Assembly (NCBI GenBank): GCA_033439295.1
Contig: JAVTLE010000014.1
Span: 1,364,001 to 1,428,000 of the forward strand
From: Deuterostichococcus epilithicus
Taxonomy: Eukaryota > Chlorophyta > Trebouxiophyceae > Prasiolales > Stichococcaceae
Length of the DNA stretch: 64,000 nucleotides
Reading direction: 5' to 3'
Below the pieces are notes generated by a model. It was not told the origin of the DNA. It saw nothing but the letters and a program-made list of their open reading frames with translations, and searched no databases. This document shows, piece after piece, positions 23,001 to 59,173 of this stretch; the stretch's first letter is position 1; every line of letters starts with the position of its first letter. A program made the position numbers and the translations under genes.

Positions 23001-23328
23001 CCTCCACACAGCCGATGACCACCATGCAGCACAACAGCAAGTCTGCTGATGAGTGAGCAGATGGGTTGTTATCTGCCCAACACTGCTGCTGCAGGCACTA
23101 CCAAACGCCGCTGGTCGGCCTGTACATGACGGAGGACGGCCAGTGCCATGATGAGATGAACCGGAACCTCTGGCAGGCGAGTCCCGAGCTGGCTGCAATT
23201 CAGTTTCAGAAGGCTGTTGCTGCCGCACTCGATCTGCACAACATCCATGCTGCAGTGTTGCTGCTCAACCACCTGATGGCCGCCTGCGCATGCTGCAGGT
23301 CATCTTCAACCTGTGCATGAAAACCTGA
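20071..23328 (+). CDS. GDS-motif SGNH / PC-esterase-like membrane protein
   Basis: Exons: 20071-20171, 20275-20746, 20960-21106, 21335-21427, 21671-21786, 22054-22268, 22294-22346, 22485-22646, 22928-22968, 23095-23176, 23299-23328; about 503 residues. Basic N-terminus, then a hydrophobic anchor (GLLALACVLASALTHPQPAA). A Cys-rich part follows (ANSCCNTRRGMF, VEQCSYFEY). The core GDS motif is VLVAGDSMMRQLYIRL, the catalytic-serine block of the PC-esterase/TBL/NXPE superfamily, followed by SVGYWVWFAEVP and VVVSIPTSH. These enzymes acylate or deacylate glycans, usually in Golgi or at the surface; substrate here unknown. The C-terminal Asp-His pair typical of the family is not certain (candidate WFRDRHYQTP). 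The last intron uses a GC donor (CAG|GCGAGT). The start exon is the least certain part; the ATG at 20071 joins in the right phase. Confidence 0.78.
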
Positions 23329-23900
23329 GGCGAAGGGGCGACCCAGGCCTATCCGTTAGTCAGTACTGACGGCCGGACGCGTGGTGGTGTCCCGCACGCT
23401 GGTGGCCGAGCTTCACGACCGCAGGAGCGGCGCCTTCTGACAGCAAATTGATGACGGCAGTCACCGTGCCCAGGCAGGATGACACTGACAGTTGACGGTC
23501 GACGAACAATGTTGCATGTGCTGATGGGATGGCACCATCTATCCTGTGCCGTCATTGGAGTTGATATTGGGTTATTGCAGCATTTCATGCATGGAATTTG
23601 TGGCAGGGGAAGAACCGTACGAGTAGGATAACGGGGGGAGTACAACATCGTTTTCCGAGACGAAGTGCAGTATAGTCGCGAGGAGCCAGCACATTTCGTC
23701 GTTGTCTCAAGTGGCTGCATGCGTCCTTGATTCGAGTCCGGAGCAATCCGCACCCCTGATACGCAAGTGCTTCACAAAGCCTGCAAATCCCTCATTCACA
23801 ACACCGAAGTGCAGCCTTCAACGGCAGCTCCAAAACTCGCTACCTAGGTTGCTCGCGCCACTGCAAGGGCTCTCCGCTGCTCATAGCAAGGCCCGGCGCC
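23329..23900. other. Intergenic region
   Basis: Between two genes on the same strand; no gene seen. Confidence 0.55.
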
Positions 23901-26900
23901 ATGCACCGCCTGGGTCGGCTGGCATTGCAGCTACACCACCGCTGCGGCAGGGCGCAAGAGGCGCCCCTCGTGCAGCAGGCAGGCCCAAGCCTCAGCCACC
24001 TGCATGGCGCCGCTGGCTTCTCGACCAGCTCCAGTCCGGATGTGGTGATCGTGGGCGCCGGGCACAACGGACTCGTTGCGGCCGCGCTGCTGGCGCGGCA
24101 GGGCCTCCAAGTGCATGTTGTAGAGCAGCAGGATATGATCGGCGGTGCATGCCGGACAGGTGCGTCTGCCTGCGACGTACATGTAAAGGCAAGCTGTTAC
24201 TCAAAGCTTCACGCGAAAAGAAACACTGAGCTGCTCAGGCTCTCTGAATGCAGAGTATCCGTTCGGCAAGGTTCCAGGGCTGGGGTCGTCGACGGGCGCC
24301 TATCTCCTGGGCCTCTTCCCGCCAGAGCTCCTCCAGGTTGCCTCTGTATCAGCAGTGCTGCGATGCTTTCTGACAATCAACAGTGTCTGCGCGGCTGCGC
24401 GACCAAGCGGCTTCTCCTGTGCACACGGATGCAAGGGCTGGCGTTCCTTTCGACCGTCTACATTTCGACCGTCTACAGGTGCTGGGGATCTCGCTGCCGC
24501 TGCTGCGCCGGGACCCACACTACTTCCTGCCAACGACGGGCGAGCGGTACTTGCTGTTCGGCAGCGACCATGCGGCCATGCGCAGCCAGTTCGTCAAATT
24601 TTTCTCGGAGCAGGACTGGCAGGCCGACTGCCGCATGCAGGTGCAGCATCACGCATCCATGGCGCATTGCCACAGCACCCGCCGCAGCACCCAGCGCCAC
24701 TTGCCGTAGCAAGAGCAAGCCTGTGATCTGTGATTTTGCATCCTGTCCCTGTCGATATCGTGGCGCGCATTGCTGTCTTGGCATGCTGTGCTGGCCCCCA
24801 TCTGTAGCCCTCACGCCACCCGCATCGCAAAGCAAGCAGATGCTCTCTGCGCATGCGTGTAACAGGAGGAGCTGGCAGCGCTGCGCGAGGATATCGCACC
24901 ATCGATGCTGAGGGAGCCACGGTCCCTGGAGGACACCGCAGCCCGCTACGTGCGGCCCACTCTGCAGCACGCCTTTGTCAACATGTGCAGGTGGGCAGTG
25001 CAATAGCCGCCTGGCAGGTGGAGTGCAGTGCAGGGCGATTGCAGGGGGTGAGTGGCCGGCAGCGACCATTTCGAAGGCGGCCTGCGCCATGACCATGCAA
25101 GTGGTTCTACAACATACTTCTCCGGCAAACCATGGTGCTGACAGCAGATTGCTGGCATTGCAGGCAATCCATCACGGCCTACCTGGACCGCTTTGGATTC
25201 CGCAGCCCTCTGCTGAAGGCCATGTGAGACGCTGGTGCCCTGTATGACCGCACGCATGGCCAAGGAGATGTTTGTTCGTAGGCTATCATGGCGTTGCCGC
25301 AGATGTGTCGTCAGCTGTGCTGCTGATGGTTGTCACAGGTATGCGGCCACGGATGGCACGAGCGCTTTCACTGGCGATTGGAACGATCCCGGCACCGGGA
25401 CCAACTTCCTGCTGCATAACATGGTGCGTCCTCGTTGCACTGAAGAGGTTGCAGCAATAGGCACGACAAAACCCGCACTTCGTCTGCGGTAGCCTGCCGT
25501 GCTTCTGCAGCAGCACAGCAGTACTCACCACGATGACCGGTCGAATTGCAGTGCCGGCTGCCCAACTCCGGCGGAACATGGATGGTCGTTGCCGGCGGCA
25601 TGGGCACTGTGACCCAGGCGCTCGGCCGGTCGGCGCGCAAAGCTGGCGCCAAGATCGAGACCGGCAGGTGGATCGAACGCCGATCGGCCTTCTGAGACTC
25701 GGAGGCCCCCTTGGAATTCTGCGTCAGTGCTGCGCCCACCGTGCACAAGAAGTAAGTTCTGTGCGTCTGTGTCAAGCACCGCAGCAGGGCTGTGATGCGA
25801 AGTCATCTGCCTGCTGAACAGTCACAATTGAGTCGCACTTGGTTATTAGCAGCTCGCTCTCGCTGACCGTCCACGTGCTGTGCCCCGCAGGCCCGTGGCG
25901 CAGATCGATGTGGCCAACGGTGCCGTGACGGGCGTCACATTTGCGGACGGGCGGCAGCTGAAAGCAAAGGCGGTTCTGGTCAATGCGGACCCGTTTCGCA
26001 TACAGCAGCTGGTGGGGCCGCAGCACCTGCCGCCGCAGCTGAACGCCGGCCTGGACGCCCAGAAGATCGACGGCAGCGTGCTGAAGGCGCGCTGCGGCGT
26101 GGGGCCTTCCCCACGCGGCCGTGTTGCATGTTTTCTGGCAGGTGCCCTTGCATGGTAGCGATGCCCTCCAGCAATGGCCAACTGGTCTGTGACTGATGGC
26201 GCATTAGGACAGGCATGAGGACAGCACAAACCTGACTGTGTGCCTGGGGACTGTGGCACACAGGTGAACCTGGCGCTGAAGGGGCTGCCGGTGTTCAAGT
26301 GCCTGCCGCAGGCCATGGGTCAGCATCGGACCACGACACACCTGCTTCCGGACGAGGATATTGTCGATGTGTCAATGAACCAGGTGCGATTTGCTGCGCC
26401 TTTGCAAAAATACCCATCAAGACGAAGATAGTTCAACTACAGTTATCGGTCACATCTGCTGCCCAGCACCTTTGCACGGACTCGCATGCCCCTCACTGGA
26501 GCACAGGAGTGGATGAGCTGTGCAGCGGGCCTCGTGACCAAGCCGTGGCACGCTGCGCCATGCTGCAGATGTTTGCGGAAGCTGCGCGCGGTGAGCTGCC
26601 CGACTTCCCGACGATAGAGCTGTACCAGCACACGGGCGTGGACCCGTCACTGCAGGTCAGCCGCCCAACTCAGTTCCCTGCTCCGCCCTGGCTGTTCTCC
26701 TGAGGGTGGCGCAGGTGCGGGCACCTTGAGACAAGTGCTCAGGTTGTCACCATCGTTTGGGCGGGCAAGTGACGAGATGTGATTTGCCTGAATTGTTACA
26801 GGATGCGGAGGGACACCACAACTCGGCGCTGTTTGTTGGGCCGGTGCCGTGGCAGCCGAAGGGCAGCTCCTGGGACGCCGAGCTGGACGGCTACGTCCGC

Positions 26901-27640
26901 CACCTACTCTCCATTTGCAACCGCTTTGCGCCAGGTGCGCGCACTGCACCTCGCATGCGCCGCACAGCAGCTGGTCGAGTGTGATGACTGATCGCCCAGC
27001 AGCCTCGAGTCCAGATTCCTGCCGCTTCTCTGTACTTGACACATTTGCCCTTCCCTGCAAGCCATGAATCATCACGGCCCGAACTGCTCGTTGACCTCGC
27101 ATGCAGGCATGTCCGACCTCGTCGTGGACAGCTTTGCTCTGCCGCCGCCGACCATCGAGGTGAGCAGCATCGAGTGGCACTGTGAGCTCTTTGAGGCGCA
27201 CGGCAAGAAGTCGTCTGGGCATGGGACAAGGCCTGTATCGAGCTGTGATGCTCTCCGATTGCAGTCGCATTTTGGCATCAGCCGGGGCCACATCCACCAC
27301 ATACAGAATGGCTCGTTTGCGTTCGACCAGCGGATGCCATACGCCACACCAGTGCAGGCGCGCTTATCAGTCTCGGTACTTTGCACAGCATGGGATGTGA
27401 TGTGTCCTCTTCGTCATGTTGGAACTGAGTGGGCAGCCCCATTACCCAAGTGATGATACTGCGTATCAGCATCACCGCTGCATGTATCAGTGAGATACCG
27501 GATGCAACACTGTGCAGGGCTTGTACGCCGCATCGGCAGGCTGCCATCCAGGCGGCTCCGTCATTGGCTGCGCCGGTCACAATGCCGCCTCGCGGCTGGT
27601 GCGAGATCTTGGTCTGCTGCCGTGCTGGCCTACTGCCTGA
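23901..27640 (+). CDS. PYROXD2: FAD/NAD-dependent oxidoreductase, PYROXD2-like
   Basis: Phytoene-dehydrogenase-like flavoprotein; animal PYROXD2 is mitochondrial. Exons: 23901-24159, 24254-24336, 24479-24640, 24866-24990, 25164-25223, 25339-25423, 25552-25667, 25891-26086, 26264-26383, 26569-26655, 26802-26934, 27107-27159, 27265-27357, 27518-27640; 564 residues against about 580 in human. The N-terminus is basic and serine-rich without acids for about 45 residues (MHRLGRLALQLHHRCG), consistent with a mitochondrial presequence. FAD-binding Rossmann motif VVIVGAGHNGLVAAALLARQ at about 48-67. Family blocks: EYPFGKVPGLGSSTG, FTGDWNDPGTGTNFLLH, GGTWMVVAGGMGTVTQAL, FADGRQLKAKAVLVNADP. The C-terminal FAD motif is TPVQGLYAASAGCHPGG followed by CAGHNAA. 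Two introns (after 26086 and 27357) start with GCGCGC; at the second, TPVQ|GLY is conserved across the family, which fixes the junction. Substrate unknown. Confidence 0.93.
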
Positions 27641-27741
27641 AGCAATCCCGTCGCTTGCACGGTGGGTAAGCTGAAATACTACCTAGGTACACGTAAACCA
27701 ACTACATCGCTGTCCTCACACCTCTTCACATCACCTAATCA

Positions 27742-28817
27742 CTATGTCTTCGATTTCAATACACCTGTCTCGACCTGCAAGCAAGCAGCGGATGCTTATG
27801 TTCGGTGTGTCGCAACAGACGCCAACCATTACTAGGGAGCACGGCAAGACAGGCACAACGCATGCGCAAGAAACAGTACATCATTGCATCGATATGACCT
27901 TACAACCAGGTAGTACAGCTGAGCCTCACCAGATGAGGCACCTCCGCTGCAAGCCACGGCGCCAGCCCCAAACAGAGTGCGTGCGCCAGGCCGAAGTGCG
28001 GGCTGCACGCGGAGCACAATGGCACTTCAGTTAGGTCCAAGTTGCAATGAGCCAGCGGCCCTCATCGATGCGAGTCTGCCTCAGGCGCCGTCAGAATCGA
28101 GCCACAAGCCGAGTGATGACGGCGGCAGGCAGGCGCGCCTGTTCTTGGCCCACAACGGCTTGAAGTGCACGGTGAGGCAGATCTTGCCGCCGCGGTACAT
28201 TTTTGCGGTCTTGCCGTCCAGCTCAGGGATCTGAATCTCTGGCGCTGTGGCTGGGTATGTCGCTGGTATCTCAAACCCAAAGTCGAATTCGTACTTCAGC
28301 AGTTCGTGCACGTACCAGCACTTGCCCGACCTGAAAGGGAGCGGAGAGAACTCATCTGACATTCATACAACATTCATACGAAAGCCAGCTCTGGGAAAGG
28401 TGCTAATCAGGGACATGTTGAGAACTCACCACTTGATGCCGTCCTTAGAGGACGTGATGGTGAACCAGTCGCTGTCTGTGGCCTTGTTGATCTGAATGTA
28501 CTTGATCAACGCCTGCAGCTCCTGCGATGATCACCAGCGCAGTCCAGCATGTCCCGCACATGAACGCGGCTGCTCCTGCCGTGTGCAAGCTGGAATCTCC
28601 GTATGCATGCTGCCGCCTGCTCACCTCTCGCAGCCGCTTGCCCCAGCCCTCCTTGTCTCTGGGCCCTGCAGAAACCTGCAGCGACGCCTCCGGGTCATGA
28701 GCATGTGCATGAAGCACATGGTCGAGTGCCGCATGGTACCTGAATGTGCGGTCGGCGCACCGTGAGCAAAGGGATCTTCTGTACAGTGGCCTTGGTGCCG
28801 TTGTCCCACTCTGCCAT
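27742..28817 (-). CDS. UFC1: UFM1-conjugating enzyme (E2)
   Basis: E2 of ufmylation: accepts UFM1 from UBA5 on its catalytic cysteine for UFL1-directed transfer, mainly to ER-bound ribosomes. Minus-strand exons: 28817-28761, 28675-28625, 28521-28430, 28330-28139, 28002-27930, 27774-27742; 165 residues, the family length. Visible: [65 protein letters not shown], then the active site ICLTVHF (Cys) and [37 protein letters not shown] at the end. Intron 4 begins GCGCGC (donor 28138-28133 read on minus) and splits KN/SPHFG; the conserved sequence on both sides leaves little freedom. The 3' end is 102 bases from the converging PYROXD2 stop. The 5' end shares a 581-base divergent spacer with Sec15. 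Confidence 0.96.
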
Positions 28818-29398
28818 GACTTTAACTATTGTGTAAGCAAGCCAACAAGACCTGATGCAGATCAAGCCAAGCTGCACCTCGAGATGAACCTGTCTGAAAA
28901 AATTCGTCTTTAGCCTGCAAAAGCTACCGGGCGGACTGCGACGCTACAGGGGAAGACGGAGGAAAACTGCAATCAGACCGAACGAGCGAGTGCAGATGCA
29001 GCCTTGGCCCATGGCTGAACGCGGAAGCAGAGAAAGTAGGTTTGTGAAGAGCGACTTCCAGGCAAATCAAACAGCGGGCTCCGTTTTCACTGTTGTACAT
29101 TGCCGCATAAAGGCCCTCACAGTTTGCGTCCTCGCTAGAATGTTGCTGGTGCTGAGGTAGCGCTTCACGGGCAAGTTCGTGAGCTTTCTTCAGAGTTATG
29201 TACGGGGAGTGATCTGGGTGCACTTCCACGCGTGACAGCGCAAAACATTCACGATGAATACGTGTGACATGTAAAAAGCCTTGGATCTGACAGGGCTTGA
29301 ACCCCGGGCTGCCCGGCATCCACTGTCGCTGATGCCAGCTGTTAGCTGTAGCCGCAGGCACGTTTTGAAAGGCTGGTACGGCCAGCTGGCCTGCAGTC
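28818..29398. promoter_or_regulatory. Shared divergent promoter region of UFC1 and SEC15
   Basis: The two start codons are 581 bases apart on opposite strands, so both promoters must lie here. No defined element recognised. A 241-codon minus frame crosses it but has no family support. Confidence 0.5.
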
Positions 29399-32300: not shown

Positions 32301-35300
32301 GCAAGAGCGCCGCTGATCAAAGTCTCCATGCCCGCCGGCTCTCTGCGCGCAGCTGCCTGCAAGGGCTCGTGGCGCCCAGGCAGGAGAAATTCCCACAACC
32401 AGCATCCATCCCCACACCCCCCACAGGCCCACAGCCATCCGGGCAACACACCGCAAACCAACTGGCTATGGTCCTCCGCACCTTTTGTGCGCAGGTGCCT
32501 GCAGGTTCACGCGGCGCTAGGGCGGGAGGACGCCTTTCTGGAGTACTATCGCGACAACCGCCGCCAGCAGCTGGCCAGCGACCTGACGCCGCCCGCCGAC
32601 TTTGCGAAGGCCTACCCCGCCTTCATCGCGCAGGCGCGTGCTGCCTCCCAGATCAGGCTGCGGCATGCGCTGCAATCTAGCATACACTCAGCCGACTGAG
32701 CGCTGCTTCTGCTTGAAAAGGCAGACCGAGGGCTGCTTGATATACAACAGCCCTCAGGCGCTGCGCTGCCCCAGGCCAGGCAAACACACGAGCACCGCCT
32801 GCCGGCGGACACCGTGCCGTGGGCGCTCATCTTGTCGCATTCACCATGTCGACCCGTGTCCTCTGTGTGCAGCGCAGGTGGTGGGCTTCTTCGTGGTGGA
32901 GGACCGGGTGCAGCGCGGCGCCGCGGGGCTGGCGGCCGGCGCGGCGCTGGACGCGGGCTGGGAGTCCGCCGTGGCGGCGCTCAAGGCGCCGCTGGACGCG
33001 GCCTTCGAGGCGCTGTCCGCAGCCCAGCAGCTCCTCGAGCTGAAGGACTATGTGTTCCTCGCCTGCACCGCGCTGGGTGCGCTCGGCGGGGGGCGCCACT
33101 GTGTCCGGGATTTAGGGCTGCCTGTGGCGGCGCGGTCGCTGCGGCGCTGCGGCTTGTCGTTGGAGCCGCACGCGGGGAGCCGCACACGTGCCCCAGCAGT
33201 TTCGGCTCCCTCCGCAAACCGGAGCAGGCTCGTGGCACCAGACCAGAGCCCGGCAGGAGAGCAGGATGATCTGAATGGACCGCAAGCGGCATGCGATGGA
33301 TCATGCTGCACCCTGCCCGCCTCTGATGTCGCAACAAACACGGCATCGGGCGCTCAAGACAGTGCTGCAAGTCTTTCATCTATGTATGCTTTGGTTGACG
33401 CTCCCCACTACCTTGCAGGCAAGTGCGGCTACCACGTGGCGCCGCTGCAGGAGGTGCTGGCGGCTGGGCGGCTCAAGTACCTGGACCTGCTCGGCACCGC
33501 GCTGGCTGCCGCCGTGACGGAGGCCATCCACCTGGACAGCCAGGCGCTGGCGCCGGTGGAGGTGGACTCCCCGGAGGTCGCCGCGGAGCTGGGTCAGGAC
33601 CTGGGGCTGCCGCTCACGCGCGAGGGCGCCGGGCCGCTGGCGGCGTTCCCTTCGGCAGCGCCCTTCTCGAAAACCGTGCCCGGCGTTGTGCGCGCCCTGC
33701 GCAGGTGGGGACAGTGCGCGCGCGCCTCTGGGAGGGCAGTTGCTGGGCTGGAGCTCGCATTCTTGCTTCACCTCAACCTTGAACCCGCTGCTCCCTTGGG
33801 CACGCTTGTGGACGAGTCGCCGCCACAGGGACAGGGGCCCCATCGCATTTGCAGTGGCATGCGGCTCACCCAGATGCAGGCTGCGGCAACCTGGAAGGGC
33901 TCCTCCCAGCTACCCAGCGCAGTGTTGCAGTACAGATCTGTTGAGCGTCGACTGCCCCAGGATGAAGGAACGTGACCGCCGGCAGGGCTGCTGCGCACCG
34001 CAACCCTGCAGAGACAGCACCCGGACAGGCGAACACCAGTTCTGGTAGCGCCTCAGCACTGACCACAGAAAGGTTCGAGCGGACGGCAGCCCTGAAGTTT
34101 CAGTTTCAACCTCATCAGATATGTCGAGGAGGCGGTGGCGTACCTCACCGGCGTCGTGTCTCCGGGGGAGCTGGTCAGCGCGGTGCGGGGCGCGCGCGAC
34201 GCAGCAGTGCGCCGCATTGTCGCCGAGGCGCTCCAGAACGTGATCGACGAGGGCGCCGCAGGCCCAGATGCGCTGCGGCGCACCGCGCAGGCGACCGCCA
34301 ACGCCGCCGCCATCGCCGCGACGGCGCCCGCGCTCGACGACTTCACGCTGCTGCGCGCCAGGTGAGCTGCCAGACTCGTGTATCCTACTGCATCCGACCT
34401 GGCCCCCCAGGCGTCCAGACCAACAGCCTCAGAGGTGCTGGCCATTGGGGGCATCTGTCCGTCCGCAAGACCTTGGCCACGAGTGGAGCTCGGCGAGGCA
34501 TTGTTGCACAGCAGTGAATAGCCAGGCTCGGAGCAAGACAGCGTTCTCACCAGTCACCTGCAAGGTGCAGGGGCGCGCCGGCCGGCGCGGCGAGCGAGGC
34601 GCGGCGGGGCAACGCATGGAACACGCTCACCCTTGCGCGGGCCTCCGCGGCAGCGGGCGGTGGGGGCGCCAGCATCGCCGGCTGGGCGGGTGCAGCCGCC
34701 GGCATGGCGCCTGTGCAGGTGGTCGCACCGATGCTACCTTGCGCAATTGATGGCACCGATACTGCTTTGCACGGTTTGCAGCCCCCCAACCGAGCGGCTG
34801 GCACTGCTGCTTGGCACAGTAGCCTGGAGCACGCCAGGGCATTTGGCGCGATGCGTGAGGCGTGAACCAAACGGCAACGTATGGCAGCTGCCGCGCGGCT
34901 GTCGGGCTCTGGCCGGGCTGCCAGGCTGCCGCAGAGGACCTGAGCAGCCAGCCTCGTCCGTGAAATCCACTCATCCATCTGCGAACCTTGCAGGAAGCGG
35001 GAGAGCGGTATCTGGTGAGCCTGGTGGCGGGCGAGGCGGGCGCAGCGGTCAACCGCGCAAAGGTGCAGGACTGGAGACCGCTGGAGCCGCCGCGCTCCGC
35101 TGCCGGCCTATCCGCCTGGGCCGACGGCCTCATCTCCTACCTGCAGGTAAGACCTGTGCTCCCGCCTTCCTGCCTCTCAGTTGTCCTGCTGGCTGGAGTC
35201 GTGAGACCATGTGGTGTTGTCACCGCTGTGCACGAAGCTGACATCCTCCGCGCCGCGCGCCGCGGCGTGCAGCTGGTTGTGGCTACGCATGCAGCAGCCA

Positions 35301-36489
35301 CGTCAGAGTGAAAGCAGACGCAGACTGAGCCCATGCATCCCCTGGATCGCCTCAGACACGTGCTCCTCTCCCTCCGCCGCCTGCAGAAGATCTTCAATCG
35401 GCTGCTGCCGATGCTGCCGGCCGAGGCGGCGGAGCATGTCGTGCGCGCGGTGTTATCTTTCACCGGCGCCTGCATCCTGGACCTGTTCATCGACGACGAC
35501 GGCGTCCGCGAGTACAACCTGTTTGCGATTTTCCGGCTGCACGGCGACGTCGCGGGGCTGCAGCGGTTTGCCGACTCTGTCGAGGAAGTTCCTCGCCTGC
35601 GGGTGCGCGCATGGCTTCTCTAATGCCTTTCCATCTGCGTAGTGGTGCTGCACCGCATTTTCAGCGGTGCTGCACATCGACGTGCGATAGCAGGGTGTCT
35701 GCGTGGCCGCTGCTGTCCTGGCACGGAGCTTGGGTCAGGAGTGTGGGCGCCCTCGTGCGCCAGGCGCGCCTCCGGCGCCTGTTGGCGCCTGCAGCTGCTC
35801 GCTTGCACTCTGCGTTCCACTCGCCGGGGCTGCCAGGCGTTCGACAACCCAGCGAGGCTGACGGTGGCCGCAGCTGCAGCTGACCCCATCCGAAAACCCA
35901 GCTGAACTGCCAATGAAAGCTTGCAATTTACATGCTGTGCGCCAGGACGAGCTGGCGGAGCCGGCGCAATTCTGCGACCTGCTGGTAACGAGCGCGCTGG
36001 ACGTGGCGGGCGACCCGCAGCGCCGGCGGGAGCGCTTTGCCGCGCTGGCGCCGGGCCGCCTGGCCGCCGCGCTGGGGCGCTACCGCGAGCTAGACTCGCA
36101 GTCCATGCTCATGGGCCGCCACCACCCCCGCATGCCGCAGGCGCGTCGCCGTGAGGCTGGACCTCCTCTAAGTTACCTGCAATGCCGCCCGCATCCGTGC
36201 TCGAAGCAGGGAGGGGGCCCTCTAGCACAGCCATGTACTGGTGGCCTGGCACACATGCGCACGGCGAGTGGCTGTGCAGTGCACGTATGTTGGCCTGCTG
36301 GCATGAGGCCTGGCAGTCAGGACTGCCAAAGAAGCCTTTGCACATTGGACATGGACGGCAGCTTGGTGCTGGATGCGAAGCTGACACAACGAGCGTGTCT
36401 GTTTGGCGGTGCAGGAGCTGCTGAAGCGGAGGGCGGTGGACACCGTGATCCGGAAGCTGCGCACAGAGGCGGCGACCATGCAGCAGCAG
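29399..36489 (+). CDS. SEC15: Exocyst complex subunit Sec15
   Basis: Tethers post-Golgi vesicles to the plasma membrane; Sec15 links Rab GTPases to the exocyst. Sixteen exons: 29399-29512, 29658-29863, 30192-30381, 30780-30928, 31253-31394, 31592-31712, 31917-32061, 32495-32633, 32878-33076, 33419-33704, 34119-34361, 34571-34718, 34994-35146, 35387-35602, 35946-36140, 36415-36489; about 906 residues, somewhat longer than plant Sec15 (about 790-820) because of Ala/Gly-rich insertions (SGGGGAAAAEADAHLD near 31980). Family landmarks in order: LDNKDIGPLVR, LLGLCASAGELVSGGHLYRA, DFNEWLV, LGQ-like RIGQRAIKRAAAER, GIDLAPLHRCLQVHAALG, GFFVVEDRVQR, LELKDYVFL, CGYHVAPLQEVL, AAFPSAAPFSKTVP, YVEEAVAYLTG, ILDLFIDDDGVREYNLFAI, and terminal DTVIRKLR. 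Exons 8 and 15 end CAG|GCGCGT (GC donors). Helical rod protein with no enzymatic site. Confidence 0.93.
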
Positions 36490-36866
36490 TAGCGAGTGCC
36501 GCCTGGGATGTTGCCGCATTCTCTGGTCGAAGGGGCGCGGCCGCAGGGCTCGATGCGGGCCGCTCATTGCATCCTTGCCTGCTTCGAAGCGATCCAGCGT
36601 TGCGTCCAGCAGGCCCAGAGACTAACAGCGACTGCACCGTTGGAAAACGTGATGCTGAAAGGAGCTCCTCGCCTGTGTCTCTTCAACGCCCCTTGAGATT
36701 TCGCGTGTACCAGATTTCTCAGTCACAGGCTGCGGCATCTACCAGTTGACGGCGCTTCAGCAGATCGGTTCCCAGGAGCACGTCCCACGACAACTTTGAT
36801 ATTGGCGCATTGTCTGCACAAATGTTGCTGTGAAGCAACGCAGCCGAACGTTGTCCGCACGTGAAG
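36490..36866. other. Short intergenic region
   Basis: Between Sec15 and the first DUF21/CBS gene; no gene seen. Confidence 0.6.
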
Positions 36867-39800
36867 ATGCTGCTCATGTCAGCACGGTGGCTGATGGCCT
36901 GGTCGCAACAGCTCAATCTAGACGATACCACCCTGCACAGACATGCACAAGGAGTCTCAGACCCAATATTTTTCTCCTACCTCGCCGTCTCCATCGGGCT
37001 GGTATTGATCGCAGGCTTAATGAGCGGAGTAAGTGACATCTATCGCGCTCCCTTGCGTTGCGAGTCCGTTTCGACAACAAATGCATGTCTTCGCTGCTGC
37101 TTCAGCTCTTTTTCCATCATGCATGTGCGTGTTGACCGTCTGGCTCACGTTTCACTGCAGCTGACGCTGGGCCTGCTCAGCATTTCGTCGACGGACCTAG
37201 AGGTGCGGACTCCTCGAGCAAACATATCATGAAACGATAGTGATATTTGCTAATTGCGCTAGACGCCCGGGGCGCGTTCCAGCAGGGTCCCTGGTCAAAG
37301 CCAGATCGAATATTAATGGTTGCGAGGTCTGGCAGCCGTGAGTGGACGTGTCCACGCTTGCTGACCATTGAGCGTCGCTTGCTTGAGCGCACTCGAGGGT
37401 GCCCGGACGCCAGCCAGCCCGGGATTGCAGGAACCTTCGCGATGCTTGACGCGCACCGCCGGCTGAGCGGAGCATCGTGCTTGATGGCTGGACAGAGCGC
37501 ACAACGCTACACACGGAGCTGAATCGGAGCCCGCGATGGAAGCTCATGGGAGGGCGGATCGATGGCATGAGGTTGTCATGCGCATTGCAGGTCCTGCGGC
37601 GCTCCGGCACTGAGCAGGAGAAGGCACATGCGGAGCGAATTCTGCCCGTGGTGGCAAGCCCGCACCAGCTGCTGGTGAGTTTTTACATGCGCTGTCATTA
37701 CAGCTGCGATGATATGCGTGTAAAAGCAGAAATCAGCCCCTGTGTCCCAAGCTGAGCTTGGCGCTGCCGTGTGCGATCGCAGGTCACGTTGGTGCTCTGC
37801 AATGCCATGGCCACGGAGGTGCGAGCTCTATGTGACCCAGGCTGTTTACTGTCGTCATGTTGCACAGACAGCATGCATGCCAAGGCTGTGTGACTGGGCG
37901 CTTGGCTCATGTCTGTGGTGCTTTCTGCGCAGGCGCTCCCAATCTTCATCGATAGGCTCGCCGATCCGATCACAGCCGTATTGGTCAGCATCGTCGTTGT
38001 CCTGGTGTTTGGTGAGCACACGACGAAGCCGCAAAGTAATGTGCTGCTGCACTGCGTGTCGGCGCTGAACTCTAGTCGGATGGTGGCCTCTGACGGTGCA
38101 ACTGCCTCCTGTTGCAGGCGAGATCCTGCCACAGGCACGGAGCTGTGTGGACGGTTCACTCTTCTGTTGCATGAAGCACAACATGCTGGTTTGTGCTGCC
38201 ACCGTTGCAGGAGTGCACCACAACAGGATTGGTCTGCTTGATCCCAGGCGTTTTGCTCCGCACATGGGCTTGCGGTTGGGGCACACTCAGCATGGCTAGT
38301 GAAGCTGATCATGGCATTAACCAGCCCCATCGGTACGATATTGCTCGGCACAGCTGCGAGTAGCAGGGTGCCAATGCTCATTTCTCTCAAGGCATGCTTG
38401 AGCAGATGTGGCTTTGACAATGACACATGTGCGCTTTGCAGCGTGGCCAATTGCCAAGCTACTAGACTGGACGCTGGGAGAGCACCGCACGGTGCGTACG
38501 CGTCCACGAGGCATCAGGCAACACGGATAGTGGTCCGAAAAGCTGGCACCCGAGGAGCGACCCAGCTGGCACCACTCACACCTTGATGCATGGCACCTGC
38601 GCAGGCGATCATGCGGCGGCGGCAACTGAAAACTCTGGTAGAGGTGCACGGGCAGCAGGAGGGCCTGGTGAGTCCAACACAATGCCTGCTACTTGGCGCA
38701 CGTTGGTCAACAAGGTTGTTGCAAAGGCTCAGAACGATCCGCCTTGAGGCCGTGCACACGTTCACATGCCGTTGTGGTATGTGCAGGGCGGCACCCTCAC
38801 AGATGACGAGATCTACATAATCTCAGGCGCATTAGATATGAGCCGCAAGACAGCAGAAGCAGCCATGACGCCGCTGAACAAGGTGTTCATGCTCAGCAGC
38901 GAGGCCGTGCTTGACGAGCAGACGCTTCAGTCTGTGTTGGCGTCAGGCCACTCGCGCATCCCCATCCACGAGGGCAGAAACAGGTGTCCTTCTGTCCCTC
39001 CGCCACTGTGAAACCTTATGCATCCTTAACCCTCAAGACGCAGGCTTGACATGCCACTTCTGCCAAACTCGGGGGCATGGCACTGCCAGTGCCTGGAGCC
39101 TGACAGTCCCCGAATTATCTCGGCAGCTGGTGTATACACCCTGAAGATGACCGCTGTAGCTCCATACAGGCATGCCATCCTGGGATGCATCCTGGTGAAG
39201 GAGCTCGCATGGGTCGACAAGTCGGAGGCGGTGCCGGTGGCTCGCTTGAAAATGCGGTCGATCCCGACGCTGCCGGCGACCATGGCGCTGTACGACCTGC
39301 TGCGGCTCTTTCAGGCGAGTTCTGGCCTGTGGTGGCTGTGCTGACATGTCTTGGCCAGTGGGAGGGGGTGGCCCTCAGTTACAGTCGGCGGCTTCAGTCC
39401 GTGCATCAGGCCTCTCGCACAGCACTGCCCAGGCGCAGCCCTCTAGCGTCGGGCGTGACGGGTTCGGCTTGAGAGAAAGGTAGTTCAGCAGCCCGCCCGC
39501 ACCAGTGCTGCTGGTTGTTTGCCTCCCATCCCAGTCGTCTGCCACCGCTGCGCGTAGACCGGACGCTCCCACGTGGCGGTGCTGGTGCGGCCGCACCCGC
39601 GGCACTCGCACGGGTGCGGCGAGGCGGTGCACCTGACGGTGCGCGCCAACAGCGCCGGCAGCGACGAGGACGATGATCCCGTCGAGAGCCACAGCGACCC
39701 CAATGACCCCTGGCACCGGGTGAGGCTCTGCTGCATGTACGTTCTTGCGCTCTCAGCCGCACCTGGGCCGGTGTGCATGCCAGACGGCGCATGCTGCCTG

Positions 39801-40885: not shown

Positions 40886-41984
40886 AACACACAGTGCAAA
40901 AATACACGGCGCATTGCAGGCAGCCGCTCCCCAACAAGTCATGTCACGTATCTACTCTAAACCCGCGTCGGCAGCTGTGCTTTCAGATCTGCTTTAATTG
41001 CGACATTGTAGGTGTACGTTTTTGTTTCGCTTTTTTCGCTGGTTCGTGTGCAGCATTTGTTCGGCGCACAGAATACGCTTAGTGAAGTGACTAGCAGTTG
41101 GAGCCTGTCTAGAGCTCTTGATGTTGCAGATGTCAAACCTGCGCAGGTTGCCGTGCGCCTAATATAACAGCCCTGCGAATACATGGACTTTGCCGAGCAC
41201 CAAAGCCAGTGGTGCAGCAGGCGGCGACGACCCCTTACCCGCAACGCCAAGCTCTGGCAGGTCCAAACGATGCAGCAGCAGAGGTGCATGCAGCCTTTGA
41301 ATAACACGCGCCAACTTTCAAGTTGTGCCGCGCCGCCGCCGCCGCCGCCGCCATAACGACGTCTACAAGGTTGCACGCTGGCACGGCTGCAGTCAGCAAT
41401 TTGATCAACGGCTTTGTAGAACCCAAAAAAAAAGGTGCGCAGGAAGCAGCCCGCTCGTGATATGGTTTTACAACAGACGTATTGAGTTTTTGTCCAGGAA
41501 CTGATCATAAGAAACTGATTGGAGACAGTCCATTACTAAATCAGTTTCCGACCAGCACGCCGCGCCGGCAAGATTTTCTAGCAATCGCATGCTCGCAACA
41601 TACAACGACGTTTGCAATCGGTCTTACTTGTGCTCCTTGTTGCGCCGTTAGTGTGGGCCGCAAGCATACTGGTTGCCCCACCAACTTATGCGATCTGGGG
41701 CAGCGGGCTGCAGCCATCGGTTCTCGCAGCGAAGCATGATGCATTGAGTAGACCCAGACTCATGCACTGAGAACATATCTTGCTTTTAAATATGAGGGGT
41801 CTGCCGGCCTTGCTTGACCTGCGAGTGCTCGCGGCAGAGGCCCAGGATGAAGGCACCGCTGTGCTATACACGTGCATATCGGGTAGTGCTGCTGTGCCTC
41901 TCCCGACAGCCATCAAAACGTCACGTACATATGTGATGTCTGCAGCCGTGCTTGCAATGACGGCGGATTGCTCAGTTTAGAATC
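40886..41984. other. Intergenic region between tandem paralogues
   Basis: Contains a GCC microsatellite (41326-41353) and an A run near 41425. A minus-strand frame of 183 codons overlaps but is interrupted by low-complexity sequence and has no family support. Confidence 0.5.
41326..41353. repeat. GCC trinucleotide microsatellite
   Basis: About eight gcc units in intergenic DNA. Confidence 0.9.
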
Positions 41985-44900
41985 ATGGTGCAGTGCGCAT
42001 CATCCGGCGGCGCTCCAGGAAGCTATTCTTTTCTAACAGCCTTGTTCGTGGTTCGATCTGCAGCGGCGCTGGTGGTCATGGCCGGGCTCATGAGCGGCCT
42101 GACTCTCGGCCTCATGTCGCTGGATTCTGTGGACCTTGAGGTGCTCAAGCGCAGCGGCACAGAGACAGAAAAGCGGCACGCGCAGCGCATCATCCCGGTT
42201 GTCAAGAACCAGCACCTGCTACTCGTCACGCTGCTGCTGTGCAACGCCGCGGCTATGGAGGTGCGCTGCATGGCACTGGCGCTGGTGGCAGTGCACCGCT
42301 GCTGTGCACATGCGGCATGCCGTCTGCCGGAACTGACTGCAGGCGCCACGCAGGACGCAGCTTTGCAGTCCGCCATACCACAAAACGCTGAGCAGTAGCC
42401 TGGATGATACCAAAACGGATTCCGGTCCTTTACAGGCACTGCCCATCTTCATCGACAAGCTGACGGACCCGATCACGGCGATCGTGCTGTCCGTCACGGT
42501 GGTGCTGGCGTTTGGCGAGATCATACCGGTGAGAGTCCTGCCTGCATCAGCGTCTGCATCAGCGGCGGCATCCCTCTGGGGCCGTGCATGCGCTGACAAT
42601 GTCAAGTGCACACCGCCTCTGGAGCAGGCTGGCTGATCGCCCTGCACGATCTGCGTCTGATGCCAACTTTGGCAACCACTTGTTGCCCCGCCAGCAAGCC
42701 GTGTGCTCGCGCTACGGGCTGGCGGTGGGCAGCTACAGCTCATGGTTCGTGCGCGCCCTCATGATAGTCTGCTGGCCCATCGGTGCGACGCGCCTGCCGC
42801 ACCCCTCCTCGCGAGTGTGTATGCTGCACCTGCTGTGCCGAGGGTGCATGTTCCAAGTTCCAAACAGGCGTCAAACACTGAGAAGCGCAATGCAAGCTCA
42901 GCGATGACTTGCCCTCCTTGACGTTCTGGCAGCCTACCCCATCGCCAAGCTGCTGGACTACCTCCTCGGCGCCAACCACTCGGTGAGGCGCCCCTCGCAG
43001 CCGCAGAAGCGTGTGTCTGCAGAGAAACATGTGTGCGATGGCCTGCCTCTCGAGCGGCAGCCTGCTGCTGCACCTTCAGGCTGCGCCATTACATCATCAC
43101 CAGAACCGACATGCCGTGCATTGCTGCCCTGCGCAGGCGCTGTTCAGGAAGGGACAGCTCAAGGCGCTGGTGCGCCTGGTCACTCAACCCTGTCACTACA
43201 CCTTGAGACCCCCTCCCCCGCCCTGCCCGGCTTTCCTGACCGCGCTCTTTGTGCACACACGCGTCGCGTCACGTTCACACAACACCGCCAGCCAGACCGC
43301 CATGCTTCCGAAACCCCATGCCGCCAGCGTGCGCCTGCACGATGCTTGCAGGTGGACATACACTCGGCGCAGAGCGGCATGGGCGGCTACCTGACGCCGG
43401 ACGAGGTGACCGTCATCCGCGGCGCTTTGGACCTCACCTCCAAGCGCGCACGCCAGGCGATGACTCCCCTGGACAAGGTCGGTGCCTTGGCTTGTCCATT
43501 TGCCAATAGCCACCGAATTGCCTGGATCGTTTGTCGATCAGCCACAGAGCTTGCCTGCAGTATGGGCAGGGCAGGGCTTAGGACGGCCGCTCAAGCCTGA
43601 GGAGGTCCGCTGGAGCTCGGAGCGAGGCGCTCTGCCAGGGGTCAGCAACACGTGTATTGGCGGCAGGGCGTCAGCGACCTGCTTATGTTCACATGTGTGG
43701 ACCAGACCGCGCGACTCATGCGCAGCAGCCGCCTGGGACCAACCCAGGCTGCTCAAGCTAGGTGCGCAGGGCTTTGAATGCCGATGCCAGGCTGCCCCGG
43801 CGTCAGGAGCTGCAGCAATTGCAAACTGCTGGTTGACGATGGCCCCTGGCGCCGCCCGACACCCCAACAAAAACCCTACATACCCGCAGGTGTTTGCGCT
43901 GTCGGCGGACACGGTATTGGACGGCGAGGCGCTGGCGCGCATCCTGCGCATGGGGCACTCGCGGGTGCCGGTGCACACCCCTGGCGACCGCACCGATCTT
44001 CTCGGCGTGGTGCTTGTGAAGGAGCTCGTGTTGCTGGACCCCGATGACAGGGTGCGCTCGTGTCGTCATCAGGCTGCCTTCATGACCCCCCTGAAGAATG
44101 CCCTGCCTCCCTGTGAGACCCCCTACACGGGTCCCGCCTTCCAGCGCTGGCACTGCACGCTCCGCACTTGCGGGTGTGACACGCCTGTCGAGGGCGTTTG
44201 GTGCCCCGCCGGCGTGCTCAGGCGCACCAAGGGGCCGGCGGGACTGCCGAGTGCGTGCAGGCCGTCGCAGAGGACCTCTCAGCGGGCTGCTCTCCCTTCC
44301 CGAAGGGCCTTGCACTCCTGGGCCATCCCCCTATTCTGCTGGCCCTGCCCAACGGGGCCTGCGGCACCCTCGAAGCCCGTCAGGGTCGCCGGAACCCCAG
44401 ACCACGGAGGCCTGCTGAAACTTTCCAAATATAGGAATTTTGTCCCTAATTTTAACCAAATACCTTGTGGCAAAGGTGCGGGTGGACAGCATGCGCATCC
44501 GGCAGGTGCCGTTCCTGGGCGCGGACATCCCCATGTACGACCTGCTGCGCCTCTTCCAGGTGCGCTTCTGCTGCTGCAGGGCCTCTGCCCATCGCCTGTG
44601 TCATCCCTCGTTGCATGCCTGTCGAGGTCGGCCGCCCAGGCGGCAAATCTGACTTTGTCAACGGTTCCCCACTCCAGCGAGGAGCAGAGTAGCACGGGCA
44701 TCATCCACACACATCCGGAGTGCCCCTTGACTCAGAAGCTCTGACGAATGGTGCCGCGTATCGCCGTGCGCAGACGGGGCGGTCGCACATGGTGTTCCTG
44801 CGCAAGCCGCTGCCGGAGGCCGACGGCGCCGGCGCCGCCGCCACCACCGACCTCAACGTCGTCAGCGGGACCAACCCCACCAGCCACCCGGGCCCCGCCG

Positions 44901-46741
44901 GCACTGTGGCGGTCACTCTGGAGAGCAATCTGCCTGCCGGCAGCGATGAGGTGCATTGTTGTTGTTGTATCTAGAAGACTCGAGCTTCTTGGACCCAAAC
45001 CCCCGCAGCCGCATCGAAGGCCGCGCCGCCCTGCGTACTCGTGGGAGGCCCTGCGCTGCCATGATGGCTCGGCCCCACTCAGCAAGGGCAGCAGGCGCAG
45101 CGGCTGCGGGTGCCAGCAGGCGCGCCTGTCTGTCATGGGCCCAGCCGAGCGAGCTGGCGGGCCGAAGGCTGCCTGCGCGGCGTCCGGTGGCGTCTTGCGG
45201 CTGCTGGGTTCCGGACCCTCAGCGCTGCAGAGAGGCAGAGCAGAGGGGTCAGAGGGTCGAGGGCCAGAGAGCCACCCGCGGACCCGATGGCTGCAGGAGG
45301 AAGGAGAGGAGGAGGACCTGTGTGAGTACGAGGAGCAGGCGGCTGCGGGCGACACCGTGGGGCTGGTGCGCGCCTCCCACTTGTGCTGTGCAGGCGCGGC
45401 GACGCCCCATCACCATTTGCTGGCTGCGACCGCAGGAGTCCCCACCAGGCTCCGCTTGCGATCAGCGCCGCCAGAGCTGTCCTACCGGTTTGATCTGCAG
45501 TCGGGCTTGCAACCGGACCGCGGCGCAATTCCCCCTTGTGCTGCCCTCCTGACGCGCATGCCTGTACCTTCCTGCCGGCCAGATCACCATCGAGGACATC
45601 ATAGAGGAGCTGATCGGCACCGAGATCGTGGACGAGACGGACACGCACGTCGACAACGAGCGCAAGGAGCGAGTCAACCCCCGTACCCTGGTGCGCTCCC
45701 GTCTCCACCGGGCAAACACCTCCACCGGGCAACAACCCCGTTTCACAGTGCTCGAATCCCGCATGCGGATGCGGCCCCTTGCAGGACGGAGGTGGTGGTG
45801 CCTCCTGTCATCGACAGCTTGGCCGTTGCTCGCTGCTGCATCGGCTTGCTTCATGTGCGGCGAGCCATGCTGCGCCACGGCCTGCAGGCGAGCCGGCTGC
45901 CGGAGAGCCTGCGCACGGCACTGAAGATGGACCGGGCCGCATCGAACCGCAGGCGCCCGCTTCAGCGGGGCATACAGGTGCCCCGCCGCTGCTCCCCTTG
46001 CTGTCGACACCGTGCGCGTCGCTCGATGCGTCCTCTCTGCAGCAACCCTGCTCCTGTCAGCATACAGTGCCCTTGCCTGCGGTGTTCCCTGCTTCACAGC
46101 ATTTGCCGTGTGGACAGGGTTGCCTTACTTCCGGCGGAAAGTCGCTCATCCTCGTCTGGGAGCCAGACCCCTGATCTGCGCCGTCGCCGGGCGCAATGCT
46201 TCAGCGCGGCTGCCGGCAGGGGGGCATCTTCGAACGCCTCTTACGCACCTGCTGGCGCAGGACATGCCGGCGATGATGTCACGGGGCAACTCGGGGGTTG
46301 GGCTTCCGGAGGGGGACCATGCGGACGCGCTGGCGGCGAAGCAGAAGCTGCGACGCGCCTCCACCGGCAAGGAGCATGCTATTGATCGGTGCGGGTGTTG
46401 CCTTTCTCTCGCCTTGGTTTCGCTCGTGCCCGGGTGAAGCCATTCGGATGCCTCATTTGAGGGCAGACTGGACCTGCGGCGCACAAGCCGGTGGCTGTGC
46501 ATGCATTAGTTTCCTCTGCAGCAGCGCCGTGAAGAGATTACAGAGTGCTGCACGGCACGGCCGCAGGGGCATACGGGAGCTGCGGAGGAGCTACACGGAT
46601 GAAGGGGACATGCTGCACGAGCCGCTGCTGGCGGACGAGGGGTACTCAGAATATTTAGCCTCAGCTGCCGGCGGAAGCGGCGGTGGCGGCAGCAGCAGCA
46701 GCGGCGGTGCCGCCAGTGATGACCGGCCCGCCACCGCATAG
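41985..46741 (+). CDS. DUF21/CNNM and CBS-domain membrane protein, copy 2
   Basis: Tandem paralogue of the gene at 36867-40885. Exons: 41985-42260, 42436-42528, 42695-42782, 42933-42982, 43137-43169, 43352-43477, 43890-44051, 44476-44559, 44774-44950, 45583-45690, 45888-45977, 46261-46388, 46522-46741; about 544 residues. DUF21 core: [81 protein letters not shown] part: [78 protein letters not shown]. The first exon covers what copy 1 splits over its first four exons. The C-terminus is different: basic [20 protein letters not shown], acidic [18 protein letters not shown] (dileucine-like EPLL and YSEYL sorting-type motifs), then Gly/Ser. Start at 41985 is the first in-frame ATG. All listed phases close; a small extra exon between 44950 and 45583 cannot be excluded. 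Confidence 0.92.
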
Positions 46742-47646
46742 GCACATGTGCAGCTGCAACAAGGACGGCTGCCCTCTGTAGCGGGCGCCGCCGATCGGGA
46801 TGTGGAGCCTGGGCATGGCACATTGCAGGTGCCGCAAGCAGGTGCCACGGGGCGCAGCGGAGTGTGTTATGAAAAAGCGCATATTTGTGACGAACCGACT
46901 CGCCACGTGTGGCTCGCAGCCCCGCTGCGATTTCATTCCAACGTGACATTGCTCGCAGGGCTGTCGCGTTTATTTTTTCACCTGGTCGTGGCTGCAGCCA
47001 CCACGGAACGCTCAGAATGTGGACGCCCTGGCATGTCCACTAGACTGATGGCTTTCAAGGAGCTATTCTGGAACAAAAGTCACATTATTTAAGGTTACAC
47101 CAAAAGCACATACTCAATCCATCGATACTGCAAACGCTGGACCTTCAGGGATTTCCCAGCATCTGGTGGCAGAAGCATGCACGGAATGCTTGGCGGCTGC
47201 TCCGACGGCAGAAATAACAAATGTCACAGATGACTCAGTTTAACCACTCGCATTTCCAATGGCGCACGCTGCTTCAACTCGAAATGGCATCCAGAAAGCA
47301 TACTTCCCTGATGGTTCGTCTGACTTCGAGTACACGATTGCGATCAGTCGCCTGTGGGCGGTCCGTCCGAGGCCAGCACCTCTGGCACAGGTGCAGTGTT
47401 GGCAGGCCCCTGCGCCGCCGACACCTGCAGCTCTCACGACCGAGCTATCTCTCGTTTGCAGTTTCTCCTGCCAGCCTGGCAACCGTGGAATTCCCGTGAG
47501 AGCAATGGAGTAGGTGGCAATCCCCTGCCCCTCCACGGTTTTGCAACCATCAAACCGGCCGCCGGCTGCTGTCACGTCTCATACGTGGATCTGTCTGTGC
47601 TCATGCTGCGTGCAAGCAGGAGAGCAGCAGCGACCTCATTCGCTCT
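46742..47646. other. Intergenic region between convergent genes
   Basis: 3' ends of the DUF21/CBS gene (+) and the secreted subtilase (-). A 111-codon minus frame at 47240-47575 lies just beyond the subtilase stop, with no recognisable domain. Confidence 0.45.
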
Positions 47647-50600
47647 TCAGACACTCAGTAACTGCCTGTGCATGACATGTCGAAGACGGACCTGTGCCGG
47701 CGGCAGCCGGGAGTACAGCAGCCTGTTGGGGGTGCCCGGCCGCAGGCTGGCAGCATCCAGCATGCCAGTCGACGAGGCGTTCACAATGGCGGCGTGCACC
47801 TCTGCCGGCAGCGCCTGGGGATTGTCTGCAGGTCCACATCCGGCACCAGTTATTTTCTGACTGGCGATTGCACGGCGATGTCTGTGCCGCCATGCCTTTT
47901 GCAGCTCTCTACATACTGCCTTTGCATTGTGTCGTGCTGTCTTGCCCCCAGCAGCTGTGCTGTGAGGCATGGATCAGCTGTCAGCGGCGGCCGGTGCAGC
48001 ACCTGAGAGGTAGATCGCGGCGAGGCCAGCAGCGTGCGGCACCGCCATGCTGGTCCCAGACGCAAAGGTGTAGGCCGTGTCGTTCAGTTGGCTGCACCGC
48101 CCTGAGGCGAGAGACATCTCCAGTTCGAGCATCTTTCGTGGGCAGACGGCAGGCTGCCGTGGCGCTGCGTGAGGCGATGGGCACAGCAGTGAGACACCCG
48201 CCGCGGACTCGCGGACGAAGCAAGACTCACTTGCACTGCCGCAGGCCGCATAGATGTCCACGCCTGCAGGGAATGGACAGGGCTGGTGCATCACACCCTT
48301 GAATGGCCGTGACCATTGGCGCTGAGTGCTGGCGAGAAATGGGCGACAACCTAATGCCTGTTACCAGCAGACCATCACCTGGTGCAAAGAAGTCGACGCA
48401 GTCGCCGTAGTTCGCCCACCGGTATGGCGTTTCTTTGTCCTGCAGGCAATGCCGGGACAGAGCCTGCTGCCTACTTGAGGTCGGCAGGCATCAATGCTGA
48501 AATATGCTTGGCGTCAGCAGTGCATAATTGTGAAGTCTCTCCAGACAGCGACTTGTGTCTGTGCCTAGGCGGCGCCCGCACCGTTGCTGAGGTGACAGCC
48601 CACTTGGTGGACAGGTCCGATGCACTGACCGTCAGGGCGCCGGGCACGTTGGCCGGCGCCACTGTGCACGCGTCGACATCGTTGTTGCCTGCACAGCACA
48701 AAGCCTGCGTCTGGCTCATCCTGCACATCGCTGGAAACCTTGCCGCACTTGGCCGTGGCCGAGCGACCGCGTGTGCAAGGCTGCGCACTCGAGGCTCGGC
48801 CGACTTGCGAAGACATGCAGGGAGTCTGCTGGCAGCCCAGGTGGCTTGGGTGGCGGCCACTGCTGCTGCCGGTATGCCGCTCTTTCTGCCTGGTGCAGGC
48901 GGTGCGGCATGGAGCATGCTGCGGGAAGCTGCCGAAGACGGCGGGAGTGATTGGGAGCGCACCAGCCGCGACGACGACCAGGACGCCGGCGGCTATGACA
49001 CGCCGCACGGTCGCCTCCAGCGCCTGCGACCAGGCGCCCACCGGGATGCCGAGGGAGAGCGTGGCGACCGCCGGTAGCGTCGCGTTCCGCATCACCCAGT
49101 CCAGCGCTGTGCAACACACGTCGCTGGGCACTAAGTGATGTGTGAGCGTCTTCCGGCGCTGGGTTGTGCTGCCCCACAATGAGGGGCAGTGGTAAAAGAG
49201 AAACACGCTGTTTTCTATCCAAAAGGATCCAGGGGGTGTCAGCTGTACAACCCGGGGTCTGGGCTCTGCAACAAATGTGCCTCCAGCAGTGCAGCCCGCC
49301 TGCGACGACGTTGCTGACGGTGCCGGCGCCGCGGCAGTCGAGCACACGCAGCGCGACGAGCGACGCCTCCTTTGCGACGCCCACAGTGCGCCCCATGGCG
49401 ATGCTGGAACCACAGGAGATGCAGGTGTCAGGGTGGTTCTCGATCGATTGTCGGAACACTCTCGAAGTCTTCTGGCAATCCTCACGCACGAGCAGCCTCT
49501 CCCGGTGGGCATCGAGGTCCCGGAAATGCCAGTAAGGCTCAGAGGAGCTTGTTGTCTGTCTCCAGTGGTTCATCATGACCATGTTCGCAGACTCACCTGG
49601 CGACGACGCTGCCATGGCCGTCGCAGTCGGGCGCCGCCGCGCCGCCGTCAATGAAGTCATGCCTGCACACCATTACTCCGCATGAGCCTTCAACTGAGCG
49701 CAGCAAGCCGCAAATGCCATAGCGTCACAGGGAGCAGCTGCTTGAAGCGGCGATGCCTCACGGCATGCCGGGTGAGCTGTAAGACAGGCGAACCCGTAGC
49801 TGACGCGGGGCGCCACGTTCGGCCAGTCCAGAAATTCCTTGTGGGTGAGCCGGATGCCCGAGTCCAGGGCGTAGATGGTGGCGCCACGCCCGGTGCCGGC
49901 AGAGTCCGCAGAGCCAAACACATACTGCTGGTCCAGTGGCAGTGCCTGCGCTGGATCGGTGCCGCGAGCTTCCCAGACCTCGTGCCTTGCCACGCCCGCC
50001 AGAGCAGTGCACGAGCATGTGGTTCCACGGTGCACTCAGGGTCTTTAGGGCCGCCCGGGTGAGGCAGCAGGCATGCAGAGGCAGAGCAAACCTCTAGTGT
50101 GGTGTTCAAAGCGGCGCCAGTGAACACAAAACAAAATCACGCATAAAAACACTCGTTTTTTCCCGGAAATTTCATATTTGAATTTTTATTTTTATTTTAT
50201 TTTTTCATGTTTTTCATCCACAAAGTCGTTACAGGAGCGCACCCGCTGGTCAATGCGGTCCATTGACCAGCTGGCCAGACCCAGCTGCTGGACCTTCAGG
50301 CCGTTTGGCGCAAAGCGCTGGCCGCCTGCCGCCACCGTCAGCGGCGGCAGCACGATCGGCAGCGGCAAAGGCATCGTTGTGGGCGCCACCACTTCCACTG
50401 CGATCAGGCAGTATGTTGAATCCGCTGGAGAGCAAGCAGCCTGTGTGCATCTCTGTGCTCCTGCTCATTTCGCCTGTGCCACGCAACTTCATGCCATGTC
50501 ATGTCAATCGACAGCAGGCGCTGCATAGCCAACACCAGAAGGTGTTGAGCATGGGTGTGTTCACGAACTGGTTGAAAGGGTATGTCTGTCAATGCAGCAG

Positions 50601-59139: not shown

Positions 59140-59173
<34 letters not shown>

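Follow-up and report, generated by a model that had tools for sequence, protein, structure and literature searches.

Why should introns that begin with GC instead of GT be frequent at one locus of a green alga, and is their frequency a matter of that locus or of the whole genome? The question is raised by a stretch of 64,000 nucleotides from Deuterostichococcus epilithicus (hereafter the window; it lies at C12:1364001-1428000 in an assembly of 46.79 Mb and 21 contigs), in which the initial annotation had drawn nine introns opening with GC and closing with AG (GC-AG introns) and had put their share at about 6%, far above the usual 1%. That claim is borne out beyond the window: judged from alignments of genes elsewhere in the genome, about one intron in 12 appears to begin with GC. 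The high GC-AG fraction is real, and fractions of this order are already in the literature for other GC-rich algae.

The genome-wide estimate rests on homology. Forty Escherichia coli proteins were extracted, and searches with pieces of 31 of them led to 31 gene places; 24 of these were fetched and aligned, giving a sample skewed toward conserved enzymes. The spliced aligner was permitted every donor dinucleotide, with a single equal penalty for all non-GT donors. An intron was retained if forbidding its donor lowered the score by at least 4 and if at least three identities stood beside the junction on each side; these thresholds were fixed after a run with 11 genes and before the counts for the 24 genes were known. 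The filter kept 192 of 429 introns, and many of the 237 dropped look by eye like gap-filling in poorly conserved stretches. The retained donors comprise 163 GT, 15 GC, and 14 spread across the other 14 dinucleotides combined. GC thus accounts for 15 of 178 GT and GC donors, or 8.4% (binomial 95% interval 4.8–13.5%; 3.7–13.5% in a bootstrap over the 24 genes). All 15 GC donors have AG before the junction, compared with one of the 14 donors with control dinucleotides. GC donors were found in nine of the 24 genes, which are ordinary enzymes, and none of the 15 introns can be retained in frame. In the earlier 11-gene run, in which one extra dinucleotide was allowed each time, the contrast was weak (four GC, four CG, and three GG donors with a score loss of at least 10), in part because other dinucleotides claimed the identical junction from a few bases away. 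It became clear once all dinucleotides competed together over 24 genes.

The window was also examined without homology, by means of a small gene finder trained on the exons and introns of the 24 genes, all of which lie outside it. With a context matrix learned from the 15 GC donors of the sample, admitting GC as a second donor gained 42.1 nats, while the other 14 dinucleotides gave between −7.3 and +3.7. The best window score was reached at a GC-donor fraction of 0.06–0.10 (six values tried). The finder called ten GC donors among 126 introns: eight of the nine annotated sites (27358 was missed), a further one at 22253, and one at 56938. The last was set aside as probably false, as a GT lies four bases further on. 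When the donor was forbidden, the median loss was 5.34 nats for the ten GC donors versus 5.12 nats for the 116 GT donors. Intron totals ranged from 123 to 131 across various settings, whether or not GC donors were allowed; the roughly 145 introns counted in the initial annotation were not reproduced. Only the donors of the finder were used, not its gene models, because it fuses adjacent genes and takes other acceptors at 23177, 28138, and 38135.

At all nine sites AG|GC stands exactly where it had been annotated: the exon ends in AG, the intron likewise closes with AG, and in-frame retention is possible for none of the nine. The nine predicted GC-AG introns are thus confirmed as an observation. 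The two donor forms originally given for them, AG|GCGCGY and AG|GCGAGT, describe seven sites (GCGCGY at 26087, 27358, 28138 on the minus strand, 32634, and 36141; GCGAGT at 23177 and 39315) and fail for 38135 (GCACGG) and 49299 on the minus strand (GCGGGC). In-frame GT alternatives were scanned for within 75 bases of each GC donor, on a scale on which true GT donors have a median of 6.07 and a 5% quantile of 2.82. None exists within this distance at 32634 or 36141, and all three at 39315 introduce a stop. Those at the remaining six sites score at most 1.82, apart from three: at −75 from 26087 (5.82, removing 25 residues), at −39 from 38135 (3.96, removing 13 residues), and at −63 from 23177 (2.74, removing 21 residues).

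Conserved protein sequence had been held to fix the junctions in UFC1, PYROXD2, DUF21, and Sec15, which finds support for the first three genes but not for Sec15. In UFC1 (28003..28138, minus strand; CAG|GCGCGC, joining AKN|SPHFG), the GC model reaches 268.7 bits with the Pfam UFC1 family versus 256.6, 252.0, 243.0, and 211.5 for four alternatives, and the junction is ungapped in alignment to PDB 2z6o. The PYROXD2-like gene contains two GC-AG introns on the plus strand, 26087..26263 (AAG|GCGCGC; gene-finder loss 3.56 nats) and 27358..27517 (CAG|GCGCGC, joining TPVQ|GLY). The GC model scores 117.0 bits with NCBIfam CrtO, against 109.5 when the first donor is replaced by a GT 12 bases downstream, and against 113.2 for the GT alternative and 87.0 for the unspliced form at the second, all values being far under the cut-off of NCBIfam and valid only for ranking splice forms. 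The 27358 junction is ungapped in alignment to PDB 4rep; forcing this donor on the finder costs 5.51 nats.

DUF21 copy 1 likewise has two GC-AG introns on the plus strand, 38135..38247 (CAG|GCACGG, joining EILPQ|A) and 39315..39557 (CAG|GCGAGT, joining LLRLFQ|TGRSH; gene-finder loss 7.57 nats). Without the GC donor, the alignment to DUF21 copy 2, which also lies in the window, loses a score of 11 at the former and of 12 to 15 at the latter. The gene-finder loss at 38135 is just 0.92 nats, with another acceptor; with finder support weak at 38135 and 27358, both sites rest on homology. The 38135 intron lies one codon downstream of a GT intron of copy 2 at 42529 (Q|A versus P|Q), an offset that could possibly reflect a three-base intron shift.

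In the subtilase gene (49107..49299, minus strand; CAG|GCGGGC, joining VVA|ALDWV; gene-finder loss 7.17 nats), the junction is ungapped in alignment to aqualysin (PDB 4dzt). Two adjoining subtilase genes lie within 47344–60000, and the finder fused the first with a stretch at about 53–55 kb that is presumably ClpP-like. The two Sec15 introns, 32634..32877 and 36141..36414 (plus strand, both CAG|GCGCGT; gene-finder losses 7.73 and 6.39 nats), draw their support from frame and gene finder; a search of Sec15 against PDB returned chance matches only.

For the SGNH-like gene (23177..23298, plus strand; CAG|GCGAGT, joining NLWQ|VIFNLC), five paralogues (L061–L065) encode the joined residues contiguously across the junction. 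The donor is taken by the gene finder, but with a distant acceptor at 24478. The unspliced reading runs into a stop, and it is the paralogues alone that disfavor it. In a further paralogue (L066:127-322; contig C12:4585560-4586100), a GC intron (CAG|GCGCGT) occupies the same site, so the GC donor may predate the duplication. A probable tenth GC-AG intron, absent from the initial annotation, lies in the SGNH-like gene at 22253..22484 (plus strand; CAG|GCGCGC; gene-finder loss 3.04 nats). Here, paralogue L067 scores 99 with the GC donor versus 92 with a GT alternative, and paralogue L068 scores 85 with both.

The donors of the GC introns differ from those of the GT introns beyond the second intron base. 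In the genome sample, AG at −2/−1 is found in 15 of 15 GC donors and 96 of 163 GT donors (p = 0.0012), and A at +3 in 8 of 15 versus 14 of 163 (Fisher p = 5.6e-5). Out of seven possible matches to the complement of the U1 small nuclear RNA (snRNA), GC donors have 5.53 and GT donors 4.53 (p = 7e-5). AG together with +5G is present in all 15 GC donors and in 68 GT donors, and the pattern AG|GCRNG fits every GC donor of the sample as well as all nine window sites. In other respects the two classes are alike: the median intron length is 252 for the 15 GC introns and 241 for the 163 GT introns, and the acceptors of the GC introns are CAG-type, as in GT introns.

Published surveys place these observations in a known frame. 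GC-AG introns make up 1.3% overall, but Chlorella sp. reaches 7.7%, Micromonas pusilla 22.2%, and Aureococcus anophagefferens 39.6%, and a high fraction was linked there to high guanine plus cytosine content (G+C) (PMC3033335). These three algae resemble the present genome in being GC-rich, in exceeding 1% several-fold, and in having GT and GC introns of similar length, and the value for Chlorella sp. comes near the 8.4% estimated for D. epilithicus; the present sample is smaller and taken from genomic sequence, and its G+C of 61.5% is under that of two of the three. Because comparable fractions have been published for GC-rich algae, the phenomenon is of a known type, and the description of the donors as species-specific was too strong given the figure in print for Chlorella sp. 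(PMC3033335). Plant species average 1.2% GC-AG splice sites (PMC6310983), at positions that often align to GT-AG introns in other species (PMC7072748). The U2-type GC-AG introns described in plants and mammals share with those of D. epilithicus the C at +2, an otherwise U1-like donor, the AG acceptor, and GT at homologous positions, but the share is about 8% here, whereas it stands at about 1.2% for plant splice sites and at 0.8% for human protein-coding genes (PMC6310983, PMC7242645, PMC7072748). In the open-licence literature on GC-AG introns in green algae, Chlorella, and Coccomyxa, and on variant U1, no report on this genome was found. Gene finders that bar GC donors would disrupt about one intron in 12 of this genome, losing or shifting exons in ordinary genes such as UFC1 and carB.

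How such donors arise is suggested by paralogues in which an intron at a shared position begins with GT in one gene and with GC in the other. The GC intron of DUF21 copy 1 at 39315 corresponds in codon and phase to a GT-AG intron of copy 2 (44560..44773, plus strand; CAG|GTGCGC), and GT/GC pairs at a shared position also occur between ClpB-like genes (C13/C7 and C3/C13) and between phosphorylases (C19b/C19a), the GT partners of these last pairs being unfiltered. Such pairs make this a convenient genome in which to measure the compensation for C at +2. Very probably, the sites are ordinary U2-type spliceosomal introns carrying C for T at +2, driven by composition and kept in strong donors. A T-to-C change at +2 would recur at existing introns of a GC-rich genome and would persist where the remaining donor is strong, with AG closing the exon, a purine at +3, and G at +5. 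High genomic G+C, a trait of algal genomes rich in GC-AG introns, is present here: 61.75% in the window and 61.5% over 327,291 bases (stretches of the same genome plus the window). In mammals, 298 GT-to-GC changes were reported versus 40 in the opposite direction (PMC3488318). We infer that transcripts are spliced at the GC junctions, that it was mostly GT that gave way to GC, and that the change is driven by base composition.

Several points weigh against this explanation. Splicing at the GC junctions is read from genomic sequence alone. Five of the 15 GC donors come from a single gene, carB (L046; contig C10:1276500-1286499), which with 5 GC among 17 filtered donors has the most of all 24 genes; if it is left out, the fraction falls to 10 of 161, or 6.2%. 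G at +5, present in 15 of 15 GC and 131 of 163 GT donors, is not significant alone (p = 0.076). When the gene finder used a GT-derived matrix, GC gained 46.9 nats and control dinucleotides also gained, up to 15.9 (CG), 11.5 (CA), and 10.8 (CT). Compensation is incomplete at five of the nine window sites because GCGCGY pairs poorly with ordinary U1: the computed duplex is just −4.7 kcal/mol for CAG|GCGCGU versus −8.9 kcal/mol for CAG|GUGCGU, while the other GC forms computed, CAG|GCAAGU and CAG|GCGAGU, reach −8.5 and −8.9 kcal/mol. Finally, the 61.5% G+C of the stretches sampled here is lower than the 69.5% and 65.9% in print for Aureococcus and M. pusilla, and the published correlation between GC-AG fraction and G+C has exceptions (PMC3033335).

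GC donors might instead be kept because weak donors permit regulated or alternative splicing, rather than through composition. In human and mouse, GC-AG introns have been tied to alternative splicing (PMC7242645), and selection for it has been proposed in mammals (PMC3488318). The GC introns of D. epilithicus, however, lie in ordinary enzymes (nine of the 24 genes) and in contexts that are otherwise stronger than those of GT introns, so that we regard this account as unlikely.

Another possibility concerns the U1 snRNA itself. Ten U1 matches were found in the genome, eight of them above the Rfam cut-off. Eight of the ten begin with ATACTTACCTG, whereas L007 begins with ATGCTTACCTG and L059 with ATACGTACCTG. 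L007 (L007:1501-1662; contig C13:1078200) contains scattered N letters, and its G would face +6. L059 (L059:101-262; contig C10:224723-224884) is the lone divergent U1, with G in place of the usual U facing +4. Its computed duplex is −14.8 kcal/mol for CAG|GUGCGU, versus −8.9 with ordinary U1, and −10.4 kcal/mol for CAG|GCGCGU, versus −4.7. The genome might thus use two kinds of U1, most of them usual and L059 pairing fully with the dominant donors with C at +4. If expressed, L059 (contig C10:224723) would give transcripts starting with AUACGUACCUG and would account for the GTGCG-type consensus as well as for the tolerance of GCGCGY donors. L059 matches the Rfam U1 model end to end and keeps the upstream AACCCAT element. 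Its score of 55.6 bits, where Rfam requires 69.5, and an Sm site that looks degenerate by eye weigh against the use of two U1 kinds, which seems decidedly unlikely. A variant U1 has been proposed for the GA-AG introns of Eurytemora affinis, likewise a case of U1 altered in its donor-pairing stretch alongside unusual donors; unlike in that proposal, the change in L059 lies opposite +4 and not opposite the donor dinucleotide (PMC7072748). The weak pairing of GCGCGY and the lone better-pairing variant offer a concrete and cheap test.

The initial annotation had favored a single donor consensus, G(T/C)GCGY, with +2 merely relaxed, perhaps through an altered U1. GTGCG is indeed the commonest GT form (24 GTGCGC, 16 GTGCGT, 14 GTGCGG, and 6 GTGCGA among 163), and five of the nine window sites are GCGCGY. 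In the genome sample, however, GCGCGY accounts for only 3 of 15 GC donors, and GC and GT donors differ at +3, where A is enriched, and at −2/−1, where AG is invariable. Inspection of the U1 5' end points the same way: base 7, which faces +2, is changed in none of the ten copies, and the exact 5' end with A7 replaced by G has no match in the genome. The consensus was therefore not upheld, and a mere relaxation at +2 appears very improbable.

That the GC junctions are mostly mis-drawn, with real GT donors nearby or no intron at all, is hardly credible: single sites do look false (56938, with its GT four bases on), 23177 could read through to a stop, and the junctions are known from the DNA only, but fourteen control dinucleotides together give 14 introns against 15 for GC, none of those 15 can be retained in frame, and the junctions agree with paralogues and PDB structures.

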